Part shown: positions 1 to 59,465 of the stretch, piece after piece
How positions within the stretch are numbered: position 1 is the first letter of the stretch
How the letters are laid out: each line of letters starts with the position of its first letter
The notes under the pieces: model-generated
The model's input: the letters and a program-made list of their open reading frames with translations, nothing else
The model's database searches: none
Told to the model about the DNA's origin: nothing
NCBI GenBank assembly: GCA_022821085.1
Contig: JAJEEG010000006.1
Location: forward strand, 1,137,330 to 1,201,329
DNA length: 64,000 nucleotides
Source: Candidatus Latescibacterota bacterium
GTDB lineage: Bacteria > JAAXHH01
Direction of reading: 5' to 3'
Translations under genes and position numbers: made by a program

Positions 1-3000
1 CGGCGCAACACCTGGTCGAGCAGCGCACCGGCCTCATCGGGCTGGATCGGTCGCAGTCCTTGCCGCCTGAGACGATCGACGGCGCGTTCATCGGCTGCCA
101 TCCCCGTATCTTCCCAGGGTCCCCAGTTGATCGTCGTCACCGGCAGGCCCTCCTGGCGCCGGAGGTCCGCCAGACCGTCGAGAAACGCATTCGCGGCGGC
201 GTAGGACGCCTGGCCCGCGGTGCCGACCAGGGAAGCTGCGGAGGAGAACAGGACGAAGAAGTCCAGCTCGAGGTCTTTGGTCAACTCGTGCAGCATCCAC
301 ACGCCGGTCGTCTTGGGTTCGAGAACCCGGCGGAACCGATCCACGGTCTGGGTGAGCAAAATGCCGTCGTCCAGTACGCCAGCCGCGTGGAACACACCTC
401 TGACCGGGCCACTCCCACTTTCAAGAATCCCCATGAGGCGCTCCATCGCCTTGCGATCTGTCACATCGGCCTGCACATACCGGACTTTGCCGGCAGGATC
501 GTCATCTGGTGCCGCCTCTTCGATGGCTCTTCGACCCGTAACGACCACCAGTCCGGCTCCCCGGTCGAGCAGCCAGCCGGTAAGGAAACGGCCGACTCCG
601 CCCGCGCCGCCCGTAATGAGGTAGGTCCCACCCGGGCGTATAAACGGATCGTCATCGCCCAGGCTCACCGGAATCGGCGCTCCATCATCCACGAGTACCA
701 GTTTGCCCGTGTGCCGGGCCTGTGACATGATCCGGAAGGCCTCCCGCGCTTGTTCCATCGGAAAGGTCTGATAAGGCAGGGGACGTATCCTGCCATCCCC
801 GGCCATGTCGACGATCTTCTGCAGCAGGTCACCTGCCCGGTCCGGCTGTTCCTCAATGAACTGCGCGAGATCGATGGGATGAAAGGACCTGTTGTGATCG
901 AAATGGTTGAGGTTGACGAGTCCGTGGTTGAGCACGTCGGTCTTGCCGATCTCGATGAAACGGCCCTGGGGAGCGAGGACCGACAGCGAAGCCTTCATGG
1001 CCGGCCCGGAGAGGGTGTTGAGCACGATATCCATGCCCTTCCCGGCCGTCATTTCCATGATCTCGTCGGCGAAATCCAGTGATCGGGAATCCATCACATG
1101 GGAAATGCCCATCTCCTTTAGATAAGCGCGTTTTTCTACAGATCCGGCCGTGGCGAACACCTCGGCCTTCGCTTGACAGGCGATTTGAAGGGCGGCCAGC
1201 CCCACGCCGCCGGTCGCGTTGTGGATAAGCACGCGGTCGCCGGCTGAGACTCCACTGCGTACCACGAGTCCCAGGTACGCCGTCAGAAAGGCCACGGGCA
1301 GCGTAACGGCCTCCTCGATGCCCAGATGCTCAGGCTTTCGAACGACCAGCCCGGCCTTCGCGGTGACGTGTCCGGCCATGGCATCAGGAATCATCCCCAT
1401 GACCACGTCGCCGATTTCCACGGAGTCCACCCGGTCGCCACGGGCGACCACCTCACCGACGCATTCCCATCCAAAAGAAGGCGGTCGCCGTGCTGGTCCC
1501 TTCAGCATGCCGAGGGCAGTCAGCACGTCCCGGAAATTCAATGCGGCGGTCAGCACGCGAATGACCATCTCGTCCGGACCGGGGCAGGATTCCGGTTTCG
1601 TTATGAAATGGAGGTCGTCGATTGATCCTGGTGTGGACTGTGATAATACATAACTTGTTTTTGAATAATAGGTTACGGGCACGGTTTTCGTCTTGCACCG
1701 TTCCAGATCGAAGGGAACGAGACGGCGGGTGAAAAAATCAGACCCCCGCAATGCGATTTCACCGGGTGATGCGTCCATGCCCACGATCTCCGCGAGACGC
1801 TCCGCATCGATCCCGCCGGTCACGGCAGGAAGGTCGATCAGCGTACATTTCAACTCGGGATGTTCGCGCATGGCGACCCGCCCGCAGCCCCAGATCGACG
1901 CGAGTGCCGGCGATGCCCGGTCGTCTACCTTTACGGATTGCGCGCCCGTCGTGATCAGCCGCAGGCGGCAAGGAAGATCCGGGTTGTCCAGCACCGTGCG
2001 GACCAGTTCAAAGCACTCCAGGGCGGGTCCGGTATGCCGGCCGGACTGCCGGTTGCCGCTTCCTGTCCAGATCCCTGCCACACCGACGCAGCTTCCGGTT
2101 TCGCATTCCACCGATCCCAGTCTATCGGCCAGCGTGGCGATCTGGTTTACATGGCGCTCGCCGGACGTACCGATGTATTCACTCTTCACACCTGGTCGCG
2201 CAAGGGCGTCGGCGAGTTTTGCTCCAAGTCCATGGTCGTCCGAGAGCACTAACCAGTGGGATACCGGACCATGTTGCGGGTTTTCCTCCCAACTGCTATC
2301 CGCCACCCACTCCTCGCGGTACAGTCCGTGCGGGTTGTTGGTGACACTGCGCCGACTTCCCGTACCACTTGCCCGGGACAGGGCCACACCTTCCAGGGCC
2401 ACCGCGGGATAGCCATTCTCGCCTACGAGGTACACGTCGGCCAGAAAGTCGCCGTCCTTCGACGGCTCTCGCAGCCTGGCATAGGCAAACAGGACTTCAT
2501 GCTGATCTGGAAGTCTCTGCAGCACAACGGTTTCCACGCTAACCGGCAGATGTGGACCAGCATCCGGAACGAGCAGCAGCAGGGCCTGAAGTCCAGCATC
2601 CAGGACACCGGGGTGCAGACGGTAGGGCTCGTGGATTTCATCCCGGGATGCCAGAGACACCAGGGCTTCCCGGTCGGCGTACACGACGTCGTCGACCTGG
2701 CGGAAAGCGGGTCCGTACTGGAACCCCAGTTCGGCGGCGCGTTCGTAGAATCGACGGCGCGTGATCCGCCGGTCACAACGGGATCTGATGGCTTCCAGGT
2801 CGATGTTGTCGGCCATCCCGGCCATACGGGATCTTTCGGTCCGCATGTTCGCCAGCCAGCTCGAACCAGTTTCCCGAGATGCCGCCCTGGAGGACAGGGT
2901 ATGTCGGTTCTGCATGCGTACGACCTGGACGAGGTGGGCGCCGGTTTCGGGCAATAACAGGGGGTGCAAGAGTTCGAGGTCGATGAAGGCGACGGGAATC

Positions 3001-6000
3001 TCCGCGTCGTCGAGCGTCTCGAAGAGCATTTCGATCTGCCCTGCCAGCGGCATGATCGATCGGTCCAGCACCCTGTGGTCCGCCAGGATCGGGTGGGATG
3101 CGAGGCTGATCGCCCGTTCCCATACCCGGGAATCGGGGTCGACGGACGATTCGATGGCCCGGCCTGTTAGCGGCTGGAGGTACCTGCCGTCCGAACCGCC
3201 CGGGCTGTCCAGCTTACTCGGATGTGTTGCCATTCCATCCAGCCAGTACCTTTCCTTCTGCCAGGGGTATGGCGGCAACTGTATGGACGTGCGCGGTGGG
3301 ACCACCAGACGCTCCCAGTTGATATCGTGTCCATGGACGTAGCACTTCGCCATGGATTCGAGCAGGACGTCCCACGCTCCACGATCGCGCCGCAGCGTGG
3401 CTAGCGCGTGGCCCGGCCGGTTGACCTGAGCCAGGTTTTCGTAAATGGCCGTGGAAAGCACCGGATGGGGGCCGATCTGAATGTAGAGCGCCTCTCCATC
3501 ATCTCCATCACCTGGGATCTGTTCAAATATCCGATCGAACAGGACGGGACGCCGGATGTTCCGCCACCAGTGGTCCGCGTCGAGTTCCGTTCCGTCTACT
3601 TGCTCGCCCGTGACCGTCGACAACAGGGGTATGCGGGTTTTCGAGGGGGTCAAACCGTTCAAGGACGCCAGGAAATTATCATGGAATCCGTCCATTTGTC
3701 CGCTGTGGTAGGCGATCTCTGTGTGCAGTTTCTGGCAGAAGAGGTGTCGATCATCGATCGTCGTCTGCAACCGTTCGATTTCCGCCACGTCCCCCGACAC
3801 GGTGACGGATACCGGGCTGTTGACGGCGGCGATGGACAGGCTGTTTTTATAGGGTTCGATGAGCTTGTCTGCCTCATCGGGCGACACGCCCACCGCGAGC
3901 ATCTCGCCCCTGCCCCGCATTTCCTTCTGCAGCCTGCTGCGCTGGTAGATGATGCGAACGCCTTCTTCCAGGGAAAGTGCTCCTGCGACACAGGCCCCGA
4001 CGATCTCTCCGACGCTGTGACCGACGACGAGCTGGGGCTCAACGCCGAGAGACCGCCACAGGGCGGCCAGCGCCCACTGGAGCGCCATGTTGGCGGGCTG
4101 GGCGACCTCGACGTCGGCCATGCGGTCGCCGGTCGTCCCGTTCCGCATCATTTCAAGCAGGGACCTGCCCGATATCGCCGTGAACAGGCGGTCGAACTCG
4201 TCCAGCGCCTCGCGGAACGGGGGCTCCGTGTCGTAGAGCGCCTGGCCCATGCCGTACCACTGGGGGCCCATGCCGGTAAAGACAAACACGACGGGGGTCG
4301 CATGGGTGCCGGTGCGTCCGGTTTCCAATCGATCCGGGATGCCGCCGGCACAGAACTCCTCGAGGTTCCGGACGGCTTCCCCCGGCTCCCCGAATACCAG
4401 TGCCAGGCGGTGATCGAGATGGGATCTGTACAGCGCGAGCGCGGCCTCAAGATCGCCGGGCGGTGCATCGGGGTGACTTCGTAGCAGGGATGCCGTATCC
4501 GATGCCTTTTCCTTCAGCGCGGCGCTGCTGTGCGTGGACAGGACTAGAATCCGCGGGGTACGATGATCGGAAGTACACTCAACGGGTTGGCGCTCATCAG
4601 ACGAACCAAGCCGATCGGACTGGCGCTGGCCAGACGAACCGAGCCGATCGGTCAATCTACATGAACCGTCCTCTTCGACTCCTGCCGGTCCGTTTCCTGG
4701 TCGCGCGACTGTGTCCGGGTCGCTACCAGTTCGCGCACCTGTTGAATACCCGACGGATTCAGGGACCGGCAGCGATCCGAGCACGACGTGCGCGTTGGCG
4801 CCTCCGAATCCGAAGGAATTTACGCCGGCGTAGGCGGGATTCGGCAGGTTCACCGGTTCGGTGACCACTGTCAGGCCGAGTTTTTCAAAGGGAATGTCGG
4901 GATTCGGTTGATCGAAATGCAGAGAGGGCGGCAGGATGCCGTGTTTGAGCGCCAGTGCCGCCTTGATGAGACCGGCGATTCCGGCCGCCGCCTCGGTGTG
5001 GCCGATATTGGTCTTCACCGAACCGATCAGGCAGCCGGTTGAACCCGTGGCGCGTCCGATGGCCAGGGCTTCTACAGGGTCGCCCGTGGGCGTTCCCGTG
5101 CCATGGGCTTCCACGAAGGCAAGCTGTGCCGCGCCTATGCCCCCGGCCCTGGCGGCCGCCTCGATGACGGCTTCCTGCGCGTTTTGCCCCGGGACCGTCA
5201 GGCCGCGGCTGCGCCCGTCCTGGTTTATCGCGGACCCGTGAATGACCACGTAGACCGCATCGCCGTCCTCCACCGCGTCGGACAGGCGTTTCAGCACGAC
5301 GATACCCGCGCCGTCGCTGCGTCCGTACCCGTTCGCCCCCTGGCCGAAGGCCCGGCAGCGTCCATCCGGCGACAGCATCTGCGCCTCTTGAAAGCCGCGC
5401 GTCGTCTGGGGCGTCAGCAGCAGATTGGCGCCTCCCGCGAGCGCCGCGGTGCAGGTTCCGGCCTGTAAATCGCGGCAGGCCAGGTGTATGGCGGTCAAGG
5501 ACGAGGAGCAGGCCGTGTCCACCGCGATGCTCGGGCCCTTCAGGTCCAGGAAGTAGGAGATCCGGTTCGCGGCGATGCTGAGGGTACCGCCCGTGTTGGT
5601 GTGCATGCCGACCTGCGAAGGTGCGGCGTACCGCTGCAGGTCCCAGTATTCGTCGAGAAAGATCCCCATGTATACGCCGACGGGCCGGCCTTCCAGCCTG
5701 ACAGGGGGGATCCGCGCGTCCTCCAGGGCTTCCCAGGCGAGTTCGAGCAGGATGCGCTGCTGGGGGTCGATGTGACGGGCTTCGCGGGGGGAGATGTTGA
5801 AGAACGCCGCGTCGAACCGGTCGATTCCGTCGACGAATCCGCCCCATTCGGAAAAATCCCCGCCGTCCGGCCAAGGTCCCCACAGCGATTTCCGCTCGTC
5901 CGGAACTTTACGAATGGCGTCTCCGCCGTTCAGGACGAATTCCCAGAAGGATCGGGGCGACGAGATCTCCCCGGGAAACCGGCAGGCGATGCCGGTTATG

Positions 6001-6020
6001 GCGATGGGTTCACCGGACAT
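1..6020 (-). CDS. Reducing type I polyketide synthase, C-terminus off window
   Basis: Large multidomain synthase building a reduced polyketide or unusual fatty acyl chain. Reading back from ATG at 6020 gives an open frame of about 2006 codons to the window edge. Order: ketosynthase, residues 1-430, with DTACSSS (Cys171), HGTGT (His306) and NIGHTE (His341); acyltransferase, about 520-830, with GHSVGE (Ser669); dehydratase, about 950-1230, with LADHRVLDRSIMP (His982; the usual Gly is Asp) and LDAGLQ (Asp1141); enoyl reductase, about 1480-1795, with NATGGVGLAA; ketoreductase from about 1800 with GGAGGVG and Tyr1940. The carrier protein and any release domain would lie off the left edge. All reductive domains in one module resemble iterative highly reducing synthases. 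The start overlaps the transferase gene by 11 bases, and the KS-AT linker carries a 33-bp tandem duplication. Confidence 0.93.
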   Translation of the reverse strand, partial: MSGEPIAITGIACRFPGEISSPRSFWEFVLNGGDAIRKVPDERKSLWGPWPDGGDFSEWGGFVDGIDRFDAAFFNISPREARHIDPQQRILLELAWEALEDARIPPVRLEGRPVGVYMGIFLDEYWDLQRYAAPSQVGMHTNTGGTLSIAANRISYFLDLKGPSIAVDTACSSSLTAIHLACRDLQAGTCTAALAGGANLLLTPQTTRGFQEAQMLSPDGRCRAFGQGANGYGRSDGAGIVVLKRLSDAVEDGDAVYVVIHGSAINQDGRSRGLTVPGQNAQEAVIEAAARAGGIGAAQLAFVEAHGTGTPTGDPVEALAIGRATGSTGCLIGSVKTNIGHTEAAAGIAGLIKAALALKHGILPPSLHFDQPNPDIPFEKLGLTVVTEPVNLPNPAYAGVNSFGFGGANAHVVLGSLPVPESVGYSTGARTGSDPDTVARPGNGPAGVEEDGSCRLTDRLGSSGQRQSDRLGSSDERQPVECTSDHRTPRILVLSTHSSAALKEKASDTASLLRSHPDAPPGDLEAALALYRSHLDHRLALVFGEPGEAVRNLEEFCAGGIPDRLETGRTGTHATPVVFVFTGMGPQWYGMGQALYDTEPPFREALDEFDRLFTAISGRSLLEMMRNGTTGDRMADVEVAQPANMALQWALAALWRSLGVEPQLVVGHSVGEIVGACVAGALSLEEGVRIIYQRSRLQKEMRGRGEMLAVGVSPDEADKLIEPYKNSLSIAAVNSPVSVTVSGDVAEIERLQTTIDDRHLFCQKLHTEIAYHSGQMDGFHDNFLASLNGLTPSKTRIPLLSTVTGEQVDGTELDADHWWRNIRRPVLFDRIFEQIPGDGDDGEALYIQIGPHPVLSTAIYENLAQVNRPGHALATLRRDRGAWDVLLESMAKCYVHGHDINWERLVVPPRTSIQLPPYPWQKERYWLDGMATHPSKLDSPGGSDGRYLQPLTGRAIESSVDPDSRVWERAISLASHPILADHRVLDRSIMPLAGQIEMLFETLDDAEIPVAFIDLELLHPLLLPETGAHLVQVVRMQNRHTLSSRAASRETGSSWLANMRTERSRMAGMADNIDLEAIRSRCDRRITRRRFYERAAELGFQYGPAFRQVDDVVYADREALVSLASRDEIHEPYRLHPGVLDAGLQALLLLVPDAGPHLPVSVETVVLQRLPDQHEVLFAYARLREPSKDGDFLADVYLVGENGYPAVALEGVALSRASGTGSRRSVTNNPHGLYREEWVADSSWEENPQHGPVSHWLVLSDDHGLGAKLADALARPGVKSEYIGTSGERHVNQIATLADRLGSVECETGSCVGVAGIWTGSGNRQSGRHTGPALECFELVRTVLDNPDLPCRLRLITTGAQSVKVDDRASPALASIWGCGRVAMREHPELKCTLIDLPAVTGGIDAERLAEIVGMDASPGEIALRGSDFFTRRLVPFDLERCKTKTVPVTYYSKTSYVLSQSTPGSIDDLHFITKPESCPGPDEMVIRVLTAALNFRDVLTALGMLKGPARRPPSFGWECVGEVVARGDRVDSVEIGDVVMGMIPDAMAGHVTAKAGLVVRKPEHLGIEEAVTLPVAFLTAYLGLVVRSGVSAGDRVLIHNATGGVGLAALQIACQAKAEVFATAGSVEKRAYLKEMGISHVMDSRSLDFADEIMEMTAGKGMDIVLNTLSGPAMKASLSVLAPQGRFIEIGKTDVLNHGLVNLNHFDHNRSFHPIDLAQFIEEQPDRAGDLLQKIVDMAGDGRIRPLPYQTFPMEQAREAFRIMSQARHTGKLVLVDDGAPIPVSLGDDDPFIRPGGTYLITGGAGGVGRFLTGWLLDRGAGLVVVTGRRAIEEAAPDDDPAGKVRYVQADVTDRKAMERLMGILESGSGPVRGVFHAAGVLDDGILLTQTVDRFRRVLEPKTTGVWMLHELTKDLELDFFVLFSSAASLVGTAGQASYAAANAFLDGLADLRRQEGLPVTTINWGPWEDTGMAADERAVDRLRRQGLRPIQPDEAGALLDQVLR
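4588..4653. repeat. 33-bp tandem duplication in the PKS linker
   Basis: Two imperfect 33-base copies (4588-4620 and 4621-4653) lie head to tail inside the synthase gene, between ketosynthase and acyltransferase. They add 11 residues in frame, giving the repeated peptide core DRLGSS in a polar linker. The length is a multiple of three, so the reading frame is kept. Confidence 0.85.
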
Positions 6021-6852
6021 GGCTCGCGGTCCTTCGAAAGGTCCAGTCGGCGTTTCCGTAACGGGTAAGGGCCAGCGTCTCGGCAGCTCGCTGCTCCTCC
6101 GCGTCCAGCACGTCCATCCGGCCTTCCACGTTCAGGTATTCGAGCATCGAACGGGACAGGCGGTCGGTCCATTCCTCGAAGGTTGGCGGATCGGGGATCA
6201 ATTCGGCTACAGAGATGGTCCGGTGGTTCAGCAACCGGGCGATGGTTTCCCGGCGTTCCGGTTCGTGAGCGGGCATCAGCAGGGGAAGCCTGCGGTGACC
6301 CGGCCCCAGGAGCAGGGATCCGTGCTGCAGCACAACCCCGCGGGATCGGCGCTGTGCGCTGCCGGCCAGTTTCCGGCCGGCCGCCGTAATCTCGTAACGT
6401 CCTGTGGCCGTGAAGCATACGTCGTCGTTACCTCCCGAACCGCAACGCCCTTCCATTGCCGGTTCAGCCGGTATACCGAAGTGCTTCAGCGTTCCGGCCA
6501 GTGCCTCGCTCACCGCGCGGAGCATCACGCCGGACCGGCCTCCCAGCGCGGAATGGGATTCCGGCGCTACCAGGCTGTACGTCAATTCCTGGTCGTGCAG
6601 CACCGCGCGCCCTCCGGTGATCCGGCGGACCAGCTCGACGCCGTAACGTTCGCACTGGCGGGGATCGACTTCCTTTTCCGCCTCCTGCCCGTATCCGATG
6701 GACACGGCGGGCGGACGCCACGAATAGATGCGAAGCACCATCGTCTCCGCGTCGCGCCGGCACGCGTCGCGCCGGCACGTGTCCAGCAGCACTTCGTCCA
6801 CGGCCATGTTGTGCGCCGCGGAACATTCGGGCGTGGAGAGTACGCGGATCAT
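6010..6852 (-). CDS. Lipoate/octanoate-protein transferase (LplA/LipM family)
   Basis: 280 residues of the biotin/lipoate protein ligase (BPL/LPL) fold. The hallmark RRITGGRAVLHDQELTYS lies near residues 76-93, followed by GNDDVCF and GRKLAGSAQRR with the family Lys. The CF cysteine and the RGVVLQHGSLLL stretch resemble LipM-type octanoyltransferases more than ATP-using LplA; that choice is inference. It would move an octanoyl or lipoyl group onto a carrier such as GcvH or an E2 subunit. The gene overlaps rnc by 4 bases (ATGA) and the polyketide synthase by 11, so the three are probably translationally coupled. A 15-bp tandem duplication near the start codes CRRDA twice. Confidence 0.82.
   Translation of the reverse strand: MIRVLSTPECSAAHNMAVDEVLLDTCRRDACRRDAETMVLRIYSWRPPAVSIGYGQEAEKEVDPRQCERYGVELVRRITGGRAVLHDQELTYSLVAPESHSALGGRSGVMLRAVSEALAGTLKHFGIPAEPAMEGRCGSGGNDDVCFTATGRYEITAAGRKLAGSAQRRSRGVVLQHGSLLLGPGHRRLPLLMPAHEPERRETIARLLNHRTISVAELIPDPPTFEEWTDRLSRSMLEYLNVEGRMDVLDAEEQRAAETLALTRYGNADWTFRRTASHVR
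6749..6778. repeat. 15-bp tandem duplication in the transferase gene
   Basis: Two exact copies of a 15-base unit (6749-6763, 6764-6778) inside the lipoate/octanoate transferase gene add five residues (CRRDA) in frame near residue 30. Confidence 0.85.
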
Positions 6853-7676
6853 GACTGATCGACGTCGCGGTCGGACTGCAGTTGTTCCACGGCCTGCCGC
6901 GCGGCATCCTGTTCCGCGTTCTTCTTACTGGTGCCCGTGCCTTTGCTGACGGGGTTTCCGGCGACGAAGACCTCGATAGTGAAGATCTTCTCGTGGTCGG
7001 GGCCCACGGCGGAATCGACGCGGTATTCAGGCTGGCCGATGCCTTCGCCCTGCGTGTATTCAAGCAGTGCGCTCTTGTAGTTCCGTGAGTGATCGATATG
7101 GGAGGGGCGTTCCGCGCTTAGTTCCTGCAGCAGGGTACGGTGCAGGAAGCGTCTGACCGGCGGAAGCCCGCCGTCCAGGTAGATGGCGCCGATGATGGAT
7201 TCGTAGGCATCGGACAGGATCGAGTGGCGGAAGCGGCCGCCGGATCGGGCTTCACTGGTACTCAGCAGCACATAGCGTCCGAGCTTCATCGCCCGGGCCT
7301 GCCGGGCAAGCGCCTTCCGGTTGACCAGCGTGGACCGGAGTTGGGTCAACTGGCCCTCGCGGCGCCCGGGGTACTTGTGGTAGATAAACTCGCCGACCAC
7401 GAGATCCAGCACCGCGTCGCCCAGGAACTCCAGCCGTTCGTTGGAGTGGACGCCGGATTGCTCCCGGGAATACACGTAGGAACGGTGCTTGAGCGCCGTG
7501 ATCAGGTAGTCGAGGTTCTTGAAACGGTAGTTGATGTATTTCTGGACCTGGCTTGCATTCTCCCGTTCAGCCGCCGTTCGGTTCGCGGCTTGACCGGATG
7601 GTCGGCCTTTCAGGTCCGCCAGCAAGGCACTGGCCGCGCGGCGCAGCTTCTGCAGAGTGGAATGCCGTTTTGGCAC
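6849..7676 (-). CDS. rnc: Ribonuclease III
   Basis: Double-strand-specific endoribonuclease used in rRNA and mRNA processing. 275 residues starting at GTG: an extra basic N-terminal segment of about 40 residues, the RNase III catalytic domain with the signature NERLEFLGDAVL (residues 79-90; Glu83 and Asp87 metal ligands) and DAYES (Asp156, Glu159), then a double-stranded-RNA-binding domain from about residue 200 with the KKNAEQDAARQAVEQL helix. It follows fabF by 40 bases and overlaps the transferase gene by 4. Position after acpP-fabF is the common bacterial order. Confidence 0.96.
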   Translation of the reverse strand: MPKRHSTLQKLRRAASALLADLKGRPSGQAANRTAAERENASQVQKYINYRFKNLDYLITALKHRSYVYSREQSGVHSNERLEFLGDAVLDLVVGEFIYHKYPGRREGQLTQLRSTLVNRKALARQARAMKLGRYVLLSTSEARSGGRFRHSILSDAYESIIGAIYLDGGLPPVRRFLHRTLLQELSAERPSHIDHSRNYKSALLEYTQGEGIGQPEYRVDSAVGPDHEKIFTIEVFVAGNPVSKGTGTSKKNAEQDAARQAVEQLQSDRDVDQS

Positions 7677-7716: not shown

Positions 7717-8958
7717 CTACGCCGTGTATTTCTTAACCACGAGCGTCACGTTATGCCCTCCGAAACCGAACGAATTGGTTAAGGCCGCCCTGACTTCCCG
7801 GTCCCGGCCCGTGTTGGGGACGTAATCCAGGTCGCAATCGGGATCGGGCTCCTGGTAGTTGATCGTGGGATGGACGTAATCGCGGGCGACGGACAGCGTG
7901 GTCGCAATAAACTCGACACCGCCGGACGCCCCCAGGAGATGGCCGACAAGCGACTTTGTGGAGCTGATCGCCAGGCTGTGCGCATGATCCCCGAAGACCT
8001 TTTTGATGGCCAGGGTCTCGATGCGGTCGTTAAACGGCGTGGATGTGCCATGGGCGTTGATGTAATCGATATTGTCCACGGCCAATCCGGCGTTACCAAG
8101 CGCCAGGCTCATGGAACGCGCCGCGCCTTCGCCGGATTCATGGGGTTGGGTGATATGAAAGGCGTCCGCCGTCGCGGCATATCCCGCCAGTTCGGCGTAG
8201 ATCGCCGCACCGCGCCGCTCCGCGTGCGACAGGGTCTCGAGGACGACCATGCCCGAGCCTTCACCAAGCACGAATCCGTCCCGTTGGGCATCGAAAGGCC
8301 TGCTGGCCCGTTCCGGTTCGTCATTTCGCAGGGACAGGGCCCGCATGTTGCTGAACCCGGCCACGGCCATGGGGGATATGCTGGCCTCCGTGCCGCCGGT
8401 GACCATGACGTCCGCGTCCCCGTACTGCAGGATCCTGAACGCGTCACCGATGCCGTGCGCGCCGCTGGAACAGGCCGATACCGTGGTGTAGTTGGGCCCT
8501 TTCAAGCCATGAATCATAGAGATGTGGCCGGGCGCCATGTCCGCGATCATCATGGGGATGAAAAAGGGGCTTACACGTCCCGGACCCTTGTTCACCAGGT
8601 TGGCATGCTGGTTTTCGAAAGTCCAGATCCCGCCGACGCCCGTACCCATCACTACCCCGATGCGGTCCAGGTCCTCGGCTTCCAGATCCAACCCGGAGTC
8701 GTCGATCGCCATCTGCGCCGCGATCACGGCGTATTGGACGTTCTCGTCCATTCGCCGCACTTCTTTCCGGTCGATGTAGTCCGCCGCGTTGAAGTCCTTC
8801 AGTTCGGCGGCTATTTTCGCCGGAAAGGCGCTCACATCGAATTTCGTTATGGGCCCAACGCCGCTCTGGCCGGCGCAAAGGGCCTTCCAGTAGGTATCGA
8901 GCGTGAGACCCACGGGGCTCAGGACGCCCATACCGGTGACGACAACGCGTTCAGCCAA
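7717..8958 (-). CDS. fabF: 3-oxoacyl-[ACP] synthase II
   Basis: Condensing enzyme of type II fatty acid synthesis: extends acyl-ACP with malonyl-ACP. 413 residues, the usual length. Catalytic Cys163 lies in VSACSSG, and the two histidines lie in NAHGTSTPFND and SLVGHLLGASG; the C-terminus has the NSFGFGGHN loop. The start is TTG at 8958, chosen because a strong GGGAGGCG Shine-Dalgarno sequence sits five bases upstream and the protein begins at the normal N-terminus. acpP lies 126 bases upstream, separated by an 18-bp tandem repeat. Confidence 0.97.
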   Translation of the reverse strand: MAERVVVTGMGVLSPVGLTLDTYWKALCAGQSGVGPITKFDVSAFPAKIAAELKDFNAADYIDRKEVRRMDENVQYAVIAAQMAIDDSGLDLEAEDLDRIGVVMGTGVGGIWTFENQHANLVNKGPGRVSPFFIPMMIADMAPGHISMIHGLKGPNYTTVSACSSGAHGIGDAFRILQYGDADVMVTGGTEASISPMAVAGFSNMRALSLRNDEPERASRPFDAQRDGFVLGEGSGMVVLETLSHAERRGAAIYAELAGYAATADAFHITQPHESGEGAARSMSLALGNAGLAVDNIDYINAHGTSTPFNDRIETLAIKKVFGDHAHSLAISSTKSLVGHLLGASGGVEFIATTLSVARDYVHPTINYQEPDPDCDLDYVPNTGRDREVRAALTNSFGFGGHNVTLVVKKYTA

Positions 8959-9061: not shown

Positions 9062-9098
9062 TATGAATCAGCCGTCTAAATGAATCAGCCGTCTATAT
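9062..9098. repeat. Duplication spanning the acpP stop codon
   Basis: A unit of about 16 bases containing the last acpP codons (Asp-Gly), its TGA stop and the following ATTCAT is repeated immediately downstream. The second copy is outside the reading frame of acpP. Confidence 0.75.
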
Positions 9099-9315
9099 TG
9101 GACTGGAGATACTTGATCGCGTCGCCGACCGTGACGATCTTCTCGGCATCCTCGTCAGGGATCTCAAGGTCGAATTCTTCTTCGAGGGCCATGACGAGTT
9201 CGACCGTATCGAGCGAATCGGCGCCCAGGTCGTCGGTGAACGAGGCATTGTCGGTGACCTGGTCACCGTCCACACCAAGTTGTTCGGCGATGATCTCCTT
9301 CACGCGGTCTTCCAT
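9085..9315 (-). CDS. acpP: Acyl carrier protein
   Basis: 76-residue acidic carrier protein of fatty acid synthesis. The phosphopantetheine attachment site is Ser34 in [10 protein letters not shown]; length and helix pattern are typical. The start is set by a near-perfect AGGAGGG six bases before the ATG. It sits between fabG and fabF in the standard order. It could also serve other acyl pathways, but the polyketide synthase next door should carry its own carrier domain. Confidence 0.97.
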
Positions 9316-9362: not shown

Positions 9363-10106
9363 TCACATGCCCATGCCGCCGTCGACGCGCATCACCTGGC
9401 CGGTTACGAAAGCGGCGTCGTCGGACGCCAGAAAAGCCGCGATGCCGGCGACGTCGTCGGGTTGTCCGGCCCGCGAGAGCGGTGTGGCTTCCAGAAACGC
9501 GGAACGCACCGTCTCGGGGAGCGCCTCCGTCATGGCCGTTTCGATATATCCCGGGGCGATGGCGTTGACCGTGATGCCCCTGCTGCCCACCTCTTTCGCC
9601 ACCGATTTGGTGAAACCGATGATTCCGGCCTTGGAAGCGGCGTAGTTGGCCTGTCCGGGGTTGCCCGTCAGCCCCACGATCGAGGTCATGTTGATGATCC
9701 TGCCGCTTCGCTGCCGCATCATCTGCCGGATTACGGCCTGCGTACAGGCAAACACGCCGCCCAGGTTTACGTGGATGACCTCGTCCCAGTCATCCTGTTT
9801 CATGCGCATCAGGAGCGTATCCCTGACCGTTCCCGCGTTGTTGATCAGGACGTCGATGGACCCATACGTCTCGACCACGGTGTCGATCAGGTTCTTCACG
9901 CTGTCCCGGTCATCGATGCTCAGGGAAACGCCCCGGGCATCGCCGCCCTTGCGGTTCAGCGCGTCGGCGGCTTCCTGCGCCTTCACCCCGTCTCGGCTGG
10001 TCAGGACGATCCTGGCGCCTTCCGCGGCGAAGCGTTCGGCGACGGCGGAACCGATGCCCTGCGCTCCGCCCGTTACGATGGTGACCTTGTCTTTTAAACC
10101 TCGCAA
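9363..10106 (-). CDS. fabG: 3-oxoacyl-[ACP] reductase
   Basis: NADPH-dependent short-chain dehydrogenase reducing 3-oxoacyl-ACP. 247 residues. The Rossmann motif GGAQGIGSAV begins at residue 13; NNAG, a catalytic Ser in NMTSIVG and YAASKAG (Tyr/Lys) follow, and the C-terminus ends GGMGM as in FabG. The start codon appears to be TTG at 10106, preceded by GGAG at a spacing of about nine bases. Lies 92 bases after fabD and 47 before acpP. Confidence 0.95.
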   Translation of the reverse strand: MRGLKDKVTIVTGGAQGIGSAVAERFAAEGARIVLTSRDGVKAQEAADALNRKGGDARGVSLSIDDRDSVKNLIDTVVETYGSIDVLINNAGTVRDTLLMRMKQDDWDEVIHVNLGGVFACTQAVIRQMMRQRSGRIINMTSIVGLTGNPGQANYAASKAGIIGFTKSVAKEVGSRGITVNAIAPGYIETAMTEALPETVRSAFLEATPLSRAGQPDDVAGIAAFLASDDAAFVTGQVMRVDGGMGM

Positions 10107-10171: not shown

Positions 10172-10223
10172 GTTCTGCCACGGGTCGGCCGTTTCGGTTC
10201 AATGTTCTGCCACGGGCCGGCCG
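10172..10223. repeat. 20-bp direct repeat spanning the fabD stop codon
   Basis: A 20-base sequence at 10204-10223, which codes the last fabD residues, is repeated with one mismatch at 10172-10191 downstream of the fabD stop (period 32 bases). It looks like a copied gene end. Confidence 0.8.
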
Positions 10224-11158
10224 ATCGTTTCCGTCACGGCAGTGACGTCATCGAGCCGGTCCGCGTTCAGGATGCCGATACCGCGGTGCATCCTCTTCAT
10301 CAGCCCCGTGAGTACGTTGCCCGGTCCTGATTCCACCACGGTGTCCACGCCGTGATCGGCCAGTGTCTGCATTGATTCCGCCCAGCGTACGGGGCGGGTC
10401 AGCTGTTCGATCAGCAGGCGGCGGATTTCATCGGGCTCCGTCACGGCCCGGGCGGTCACGTTGGCAACCACCGGCGTCTCCGCGCGGGCGAAGGGGGCCT
10501 TTTCGATCGCCTCGGCGAGGCCTTGCCGCGCGTATTCCATGAGTTCGGAATGGAAGGCGCCGCTGACCTTGAGCGGAACGACCCGCTTCGCGCCCGCCGA
10601 CCGGGCGCTGTCCATCGCACGTTGCACAGCCGGCACCGCGCCCGCGATGACGGTCTGCACCGGTGCGTTGTAGTTCGCCGGCTGAACGGGCTCGTCTTCC
10701 GCGCTGGCGGCCCGGCAGACTTCGTCGATCTCCCGAGGAGACAGGCCGATCACGGCCGCCATGGTTCCCTGCCGCCGCTGCCCGGCCTCGTGCATCAGCG
10801 CACTGCGCAGGCGGACCAGGCGCAACGACTCCTCGAAATCGAGAACGCCGGCCGTAACCAGCGCCGAATATTCACCCAGGCTGTGGCCGGCGACGAAATC
10901 CGGTTCGATCCCATGCACTCTCAGCAAGGAAGCGACCGCCACACTGTGTACCAGGATGGCCAGTTGCGTGTAGTTCGTCTGCTGAAGGGTTTCAGGGGGA
11001 CCGTCGAAGGAGACACCGGCGATATCGGCGCCGGTGATCTCCTGGGCCTGCTGGTAGAGCGATCGGACCTGCGGATACCGGTCGTGCAGGTCCCGGCCCA
11101 TGCCGACGTATTGCGAGGCCTGGCCCGGAAACAAGAAAGCGATCCTGGCTTGGGTCAT
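10199..11158 (-). CDS. fabD: Malonyl-CoA:ACP transacylase
   Basis: Loads malonyl groups from CoA onto acyl carrier protein. 319 residues from ATG at 11158: FLFPGQASQYVGMG at the N-terminus, nucleophile motif GHSLGEYSAL, and GAFHSELME with the catalytic His. A longer frame runs upstream to 11491, but the added residues are low-complexity and overlap rpmF, so the start at FabD's normal N-terminus is preferred. It follows rpmF by 17 bases; plsX and fabH, often found in this gap, are absent. Confidence 0.95.
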   Translation of the reverse strand: MTQARIAFLFPGQASQYVGMGRDLHDRYPQVRSLYQQAQEITGADIAGVSFDGPPETLQQTNYTQLAILVHSVAVASLLRVHGIEPDFVAGHSLGEYSALVTAGVLDFEESLRLVRLRSALMHEAGQRRQGTMAAVIGLSPREIDEVCRAASAEDEPVQPANYNAPVQTVIAGAVPAVQRAMDSARSAGAKRVVPLKVSGAFHSELMEYARQGLAEAIEKAPFARAETPVVANVTARAVTEPDEIRRLLIEQLTRPVRWAESMQTLADHGVDTVVESGPGNVLTGLMKRMHRGIGILNADRLDDVTAVTETIGRPVAEH

Positions 11159-11175: not shown

Positions 11176-11358
11176 CTAAATCGCTTCGACTTCCTGGACT
11201 TCCCTTCCCTGATAGTATCCGCAGTGGGGGCAAACGCGGTGCGCCCGTTTCTTCTCTCCACAGTGGGAGCATTCCACCAGCGTCGGCATCGACAGCACCC
11301 AGTGCGTACGGCGCTTGCGACTCCGTGCCCGAGATTGGCGTCGCTTGGGCAGAGCCAT
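11176..11358 (-). CDS. rpmF: 50S ribosomal protein L32
   Basis: 60-residue large-subunit ribosomal protein. Begins [20 protein letters not shown], typical of L32, and has a four-cysteine zinc-binding pair (CSHCG and CPHCG). A strong AAGGAGG ribosome binding site precedes the ATG. Its position three bases after the DUF177 gene and just before fab genes is conserved in many bacteria. Confidence 0.97.
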
Positions 11359-11361
11359 GTT

Positions 11362-11883
11362 CTAATCCTCCTTCAACAACGATTTCAAGGTGTGCCAGCG
11401 TGGGTCCATCTGCCGCGTACCGCAACTGCAGGCGCCCTCGTTGAGGTTCCTGCCGCAGTCGGGACAGAGGCCCTTGCATGCTTCGCTGCACAGGGGTTTC
11501 ATGGGGATATTCAGGTTGACGAGCTCGGCGATGCGCCGACTGAGGTCGATTGTCTTCGCGCTGTAGTCCAGGATCTCCACGTCGTCCGACTCGGTCAACT
11601 CCTCGCCATCGGGTATGGCCCGGTCGGTCTTCTCGTAGAAAGTCGCGATTTCACCGCTGATGATTTCCTCGACCTCATCAAGGCACCGGCCGCAGGAGAA
11701 AGTCATGGAGACCGCGATGTCGGCCTGCAGCACGAGCGAATTCTCGGAGACGGTCAGCGTACCGTCCACCTTGACGGGAGAAGCGAAACGGCAGTCCTCG
11801 CCCGGAATGAAATCGGCGGCGGGCATGTCTTCCAGGTGGATGGGATGCAGACCTTCGGCCAGATGCTCGATCGCTATTTGCAT
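11362..11883 (-). CDS. DUF177 (YceD-like) protein
   Basis: 173-residue YceD/DUF177 family protein, linked in other bacteria to 23S rRNA accumulation and nearly always encoded before rpmF. Visible features are the family's CGRCLDE near residue 70 and a C-terminal cysteine cluster (CSEACKGLCPDCG, then CSCG) that may bind zinc. It is the first gene after the promoter at 11985-12014 and so heads the fatty-acid operon. Its ribosome binding site is weak. Confidence 0.88.
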   Translation of the reverse strand: MQIAIEHLAEGLHPIHLEDMPAADFIPGEDCRFASPVKVDGTLTVSENSLVLQADIAVSMTFSCGRCLDEVEEIISGEIATFYEKTDRAIPDGEELTESDDVEILDYSAKTIDLSRRIAELVNLNIPMKPLCSEACKGLCPDCGRNLNEGACSCGTRQMDPRWHTLKSLLKED

Positions 11884-11984: not shown

Positions 11985-12014
11985 ATAATAGGGAGGTTAC
12001 CCCTGTCATGTCAA
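11985..12014 (-). promoter_or_regulatory. Sigma-70 type promoter for the DUF177-rpmF-fab operon
   Basis: On the minus strand a perfect TTGACA (12014-12009) is followed after 18 bases by TATTAT (11990-11985, five of six matches to consensus). It lies about 100 bases upstream of the DUF177 start and is the only strong promoter seen for the run down to the polyketide synthase. Confidence 0.7.
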
Positions 12015-59360: not shown

Positions 59361-59432
59361 CCGATTGAATCCATCCCGGATTGGTCGGAATGCGATCCGA
59401 TTGAATCCATCCCGGATTGGTCGGAATGCGAT
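59361..59432. repeat. 36-bp tandem duplication upstream of comM
   Basis: Two identical 36-base copies (59361-59396, 59397-59432) lie between the yggS promoter and comM. If the upstream ATG at 59346 were used they would be translated as PIESIPDWSECD twice, but the comM start lies further on. Confidence 0.9.
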
Positions 59433-59465
59433 CCGATACGGTGCCATTCATCGAAGGAGGACAGC

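Follow-up and report, generated by a model that had tools for sequence, protein, structure and literature searches.

A reducing type I polyketide synthase at the end of a fatty-acid operon in most genomes of a candidate bacterial phylum

Megasynthases are usually encoded in separate, mobile gene clusters. Several described enzymes resemble the single-module type I polyketide synthase (PKS) reported here. Mycocerosic acid synthase (MAS) and the Pks2-type enzymes share with it the domain order KS-AT-DH-ER-KR-ACP, a length of about 2100 amino acids and the lack of a thioesterase, and animal fatty-acid synthase (FAS) carries the same reducing domains in the same order. SwfA, from sponge-associated bacteria, is likewise mono-modular with KS-AT-DH-ER-KR-ACP (PMC3908369), and swf-like clusters have been reported from Latescibacterota among others (PMC9426513). 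SupA is a small FAS-like PKS that is common in sponges and has been proposed to make branched fatty acids (PMC4245539). In a limited search of open papers we found no description of a PKS inside the fatty-acid operon treated here. The gene described here has this location, in a 64,000-nucleotide stretch of DNA (the window; G000:C1:1137330-1201329, G000 being the window's own genome) from a bacterium of JAAXHH01. This lineage is the GTDB phylum Candidatus Ifutiota, whose listed sources are freshwater, hypoxic seawater, sponge tissue and marine metagenomes (PMC11382960).

The operon runs on the minus strand in the order yceD-rpmF-fabD-fabG-acpP-fabF-rnc-lipM-PKS, with the PKS as its last gene:

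11985..12014, minus strand: promoter-like site before yceD, TTGACA-18-TATTAT, 11 of 12 positions, a consensus match only
11362..11883, minus strand: yceD-like gene (DUF177 protein) with which the run begins; identification by position and sequence
11176..11358, minus strand: rpmF, ribosomal protein L32, named by sequence and position
10199..11158, minus strand: fabD, malonyl transferase, with a start deduced from the conserved region; the program-made open reading frame extends to 11491, over rpmF
9363..10106, minus strand: fabG, ketoacyl-ACP reductase (open reading frame and Pfam)
9085..9315, minus strand: acpP, acyl carrier protein (open reading frame and Pfam)
7717..8958, minus strand: fabF, ketoacyl-ACP synthase II (open reading frame and family-model match)
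6849..7676, minus strand: rnc, ribonuclease III, overlapping lipM by 4 bases
6010..6852, minus strand: lipM, LipM-type octanoyltransferase of 280 amino acids, overlapping the PKS by 11 bases; Cys146 and Lys161 invariant
6010..6020, minus strand: the 11-base lipM/PKS overlap, identical in 14 genomes
1..6020, minus strand: type I PKS, part inside the window, continuing left to G000:C1:1136945

The initial annotation had placed rnc after acpP-fabF, with overlaps of 4 bases between rnc and the transferase gene and of 11 bases between the transferase gene and the PKS, and the minus-strand open reading frames agree with this order and reproduce both overlaps exactly. In E. coli, plsX and fabH come after rpmF; both are missing from this place in the window's operon. 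By consensus match only, the strongest promoter-like site of the operon is the one before yceD, and immediately ahead of lipM or the PKS the consensus scan gave no promoter-like match on the minus strand. An AGGA motif stands about 10 nucleotides before the PKS start, inside lipM, and is seen in most copies. We infer that the PKS would be transcribed together with the fatty-acid genes. Its translation is probably coupled from lipM, in line with the translational coupling to core lipid genes that had been proposed.

Reading the gene past the left window edge gave a protein of 2134 amino acids with KS-AT-DH-ER-KR-ACP; the first five domains, given by Pfam, stand in one module in the order recognized initially, and the C-terminal ACP (LGVDSLMAVELRNRI) lies outside the window. 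The Pfam domains inside the window are:

~6011-4761, minus strand: KS
4289-3330, minus strand: AT
3173-2358, minus strand: DH
1580-693, minus strand: ER
629-108, minus strand: KR

The 2134 amino acids contain no thioesterase or other release domain and no methyltransferase. The catalytic residues of KS, AT, DH, KR and ACP and the nucleotide motif of ER are kept in the 15 copies, as far as contigs reach. The AT carries the motifs GHSVGE and IAYH (GHSTGE and VAFH in G012), which, by the general motif rule that assigns ATs to malonyl or methylmalonyl substrates, point to malonyl-CoA as its substrate. Because KR, DH and ER are intact and no methyltransferase is present, the simplest expected product would be a straight saturated chain, and because the protein has no release domain, release would have to occur in trans. 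The stop codon of the PKS is 1 base from a convergent tRNA-Thr gene, to the left of which follow genes for an amidohydrolase, tRNA-Arg, an alcohol dehydrogenase and a short-chain dehydrogenase, none of them an obvious partner of the PKS. On neither side, relatives' loci included, did we find a tailoring, transport or release gene near the PKS, and the genes downstream of it vary between families. Extension to the left thus completed the PKS and supplied its carrier domain, with no release domain or accessory cluster; reading of the left flank together with the relatives' loci ruled out a concealed cluster there. Neither a promoter of its own nor a product-specific cluster to the left was seen.

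Over its whole length the best solved-structure match of the PKS is MAS. In contrast to MAS and Pks2, the operon PKS has IAYH/GHSVGE and not the methylmalonyl-type AT motif, lacks acyl-loading or transfer partner genes and is encoded in the FAS operon, and its score against the Pks2 family model (1084 bits) stays below the cut-off of 2400. Identity with SwfA is ruled out by the published signatures, which are DPQ[I/V]R and HATGT in the KS and GHSSGE and IAFH in the AT (PMC3908369), whereas the operon PKS has DPQQR and HGTGT, and GHSVGE and IAYH. It also has neither swfB nor swfC on either side and occurs in non-sponge members as well. Unlike SupA, which we compared by description only, it has no methyltransferase domain. 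The model of the PUFA synthase PfaA (TIGR02813) gives 278 bits against a cut-off of 1010, and the operon PKS has one terminal ACP, not a tandem. A solved animal FAS was found by sequence, but the operon PKS has no thioesterase and its KS is closer to CurL (423 bits) than to FAS (289 bits).

The phylum comparison comprised 16 species, of which 12 belong to the window's genus, 2 to other genera of its family (f1) and 2 to further families; G014 and G015 are 83% and 85% complete. Those relatives that have names are metagenome-assembled genomes filed under Gemmatimonadetes or Candidatus Latescibacterota; one member of the window's genus is the source of contig JAAXHH010000141. Judging by isolate names, several apparently stem from sponge projects, and the sources of the outer relatives are Tara Oceans, Saanich Inlet and lake samples. 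The PKS follows lipM in 15/16 genomes, with G014 as the exception, and is common to sponge, open-ocean, fjord and lake members of the phylum. The order fabD-fabG-acpP-fabF-rnc-lipM-PKS is shared, as far as contigs extend, by all 12 genus members, G012 and G013; G015 has lipM-PKS on a contig that begins at lipM. Moreover, the 11-base overlap is exact in 14 genomes (the genus members and both other genera of the family). Across these, identity to the window's proteins falls to 44% for LipM and 63% for KS, and its persistence despite such divergence of LipM indicates more than chance. An assembly artefact is ruled out by the agreement of many independent assemblies. Integration of the PKS into the core fatty-acid operon, as first described from the window alone, is therefore long-standing and conserved in relatives.

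In G014 no PKS start was found in the ~250 bases remaining after lipM; we rejected this genome as a further carrier, its PKS being on a separate contig behind a Nudix-type gene. Outside the phylum, CP070758 (G073, L062) has fabD-fabG-acpP-fabF-rnc-lipM in the same order without the PKS. For the neighbour survey the best 80 LipM loci were kept and 204 weaker loci left out; among these 80, none of the 70 loci outside the phylum had a PKS behind lipM, and one (L182), a weak 29% match, resembles a stand-alone enzyme. Because rnc-lipM occurs without the PKS in both G014 and CP070758, rnc-lipM is the older unit, to which the PKS was added later. In the LipM tree G014 splits off before the PKS carriers (support 90/77), and a single PKS insertion after this split fits the data, with modest support.

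The transferase belongs to the LplA/LipM fold family, with a match to PF21948, and its invariant Cys146 and Lys161 are also kept in Bacillales relatives. Outside the phylum its closest relatives are CP070758 and, for the most part, proteins of Bacillales, the home of characterised LipM. By sequence we classify it as a LipM-type octanoyltransferase: it resembles the Bacillus-type enzyme over the full length, with catalytic Cys and Lys kept, but differs from it in lying between rnc and a PKS and in coexisting with LipB in family f1. Elsewhere in G000 lies a gene for LipB (L273, G000:C1:1522203-1522694, minus strand), whose Lys and Cys motifs are intact. Both LipB and LipM are present in 13 genomes of the family, and their co-occurrence is reported to be very rare (PMC10332631). 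With an intact LipB alongside, LipM could be free for another task, and this coexistence could leave room for a special LipM-PKS role. The functional link between transferase and PKS that had been suggested initially is nevertheless weakened by the genomes in which lipM follows rnc without the PKS. Within lipM, a 15-base tandem repeat (window 6748-6783) encodes a run of RRDA-like units whose length varies among genus members.

We estimated dN/dS at ~0.25 for the PKS, 0.06-0.13 for fabF and fabG and 0.20-0.30 for lipM, by which the PKS is under purifying selection. In the KS and ER-KR trees the operon copies fall together and branch according to taxonomy, and the LipM tree also follows descent. 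Within the genus, AT-DH (window ~2346-4298) forms two allele classes that cut across two LipM/KS subclades; the AU test rejects keeping the subclades together for AT-DH, with p-values that are optimistic because the groups were chosen after seeing the domain identities. KS and its coupling to lipM are thus passed on vertically, while AT-DH has recombined between lineages, which suggests some selection for product variety and argues against a strict housekeeping function. The DH and linker regions have only 22-28% identity between genera and families. In the KS tree, built without reference sequences of SupA, HglE and WcbR/RkpA, the operon KS falls beside PKSs from a Planktothrix plasmid and from other genomes, and a Deinococcus plasmid PKS lies near the G014 copy.

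With E. coli FabH, PlsX, FabI, FabZ, LipA and LipB as probes against the phylum genomes, we found FabZ and LipA present, LipB in 13 genomes and PlsX in none of the 16. We found FabH in G014, the sole non-carrier, and in none of the 15 genomes with the operon PKS. Weak FabH-family matches in G012 and G014 (C322) were rejected as FabH because they are type III PKS-like by sequence, and one in G013 because it has the same kind of neighbour gene as these loci. The association of missing FabH with the operon PKS, which rests on the one contrast with G014, is suggestive. The type III PKS-like genes (L102, G012:C74; L103, G014:C322) lie near nucleotidyltransferase genes, and an isoprenylcysteine-methyltransferase-like gene near the one in G012 has a similar counterpart in L101 (G013:C366). 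In G000 the FabI probe hit nothing but ordinary short-chain dehydrogenases of the Yx3K type, and no protein reached the cut-off for FabK. FabV is present in 14/16 phylum genomes, so that the type II cycle is complete after initiation, and the PKS as supplier of a missing enoyl reductase is ruled out. YiiD_C, a malonyl-ACP decarboxylase that serves as a proteobacterial FabH bypass (PMC8666670), is absent. G000 also encodes AccA-D, LpxA and a PlsC-like protein. In the seven genomes tested, G000 included, probing with PlsY and PlsB of E. coli gave no hit.

Because most of the phylum has kept the PKS as the last gene of the fatty-acid operon, the enzyme probably belongs to core lipid chemistry and not to an optional natural-product cluster. 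The account we favour, by a little more than an even balance, is a core malonyl-using, fully reducing FAS-like synthase that is co-expressed with the type II FAS. The PKS would have been appended behind rnc-lipM in the ancestor of most of the phylum and then fixed in the fatty-acid operon; its AT would load malonyl-CoA, the enzyme would iterate to a straight saturated acyl chain on its own ACP, and a trans-acting enzyme (its own AT, transferring to CoA, or an acyltransferase) would unload the chain into lipid metabolism beside the type II FAS. The constitutive lipid role proposed initially, with an unusual membrane or storage lipid as product, is plausible but unproven. G014 lives without the PKS at lipM, the dN/dS of the PKS is above that of fabF and fabG, and recombination of AT-DH across subclades, which is uncommon in housekeeping enzymes, moderates the view of the PKS as purely housekeeping. 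This recombination, together with the fast evolution of DH and linker, would also suit a lineage-specific specialised metabolite, a bioactive or signalling acyl product whose gene uses the FAS operon merely for steady expression and carrier or malonyl supply. The nearest KS relatives are indeed ordinary PKSs, one of them on the Planktothrix plasmid, and antiSMASH surveys of sponge Latescibacterota class type I PKS as secondary metabolism (PMC12993501). The constant place of the gene in 15/16 genomes from various habitats, the purifying selection and the absence of adjoining tailoring, transport or release genes argue the other way, and we regard this explanation as rather unlikely, if the most serious competitor to the core synthase.

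A more specific role would be replacement of FabH, in which the PKS makes a short saturated chain from CoA thioesters and hands it to AcpP for elongation by FabF, rendering FabH dispensable. The distribution of FabH, the lack of plsX-fabH at their customary site after rpmF and the absence of the YiiD_C bypass fit this idea, but the contrast is a single one among genomes that include two of 83% and 85% completeness, condensing enzymes can accept acetyl-ACP, which another decarboxylase could supply, and transfer of a chain from the ACP of the PKS to AcpP is undocumented. Since G014 lacks PlsX too, losses in the operon are not tied to the PKS. We consider such a replacement doubtful, and equally doubtful the broader proposition that a type I FAS-like PKS joined the primary fatty-acid machinery and took over initiation after FabH loss, giving a type I/II hybrid in one phylum. 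Octanoyl supply, with the PKS making a C8 chain that LipM passes to GcvH for lipoate, or with LipM unloading or priming the PKS, seems very unlikely to us. The lipM/PKS overlap kept in 14 genomes, the rare pairing of LipB with LipM, which could permit a special LipM task, and a GcvH encoded in G000 are in its favour; however, lipM stands behind rnc without the PKS in G014 and CP070758, octanoyl-AcpP should already come from the type II FAS, and insertion alone explains the adjacency with no need for a functional link.

In most of this phylum, then, a megasynthase has a fixed place in the core fatty-acid operon, alongside the loss of FabH and PlsX. Should the PKS contribute to primary lipid synthesis, it would represent a bacterial type I synthase that cooperates with, or partly replaces, the type II FAS, and it could be tested as a source of unusual lipids both in sponges and in water columns; genome-mining tools may class such PKS genes as secondary metabolism. 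G000 also encodes a second PKS of 3496 amino acids with KS-AT-DH-MT-ER-KR-ACP-KS-AT (L243:7894-18384; G000:C2:73893-84383), which is present in most of the genus and, at a similar size, also in G086, G227 and G356, three genomes of 1.7 Mb from an unrelated lineage. Elsewhere in the window, positions 59361-59437 form a perfect 36-base tandem repeat of 2.1 copies.
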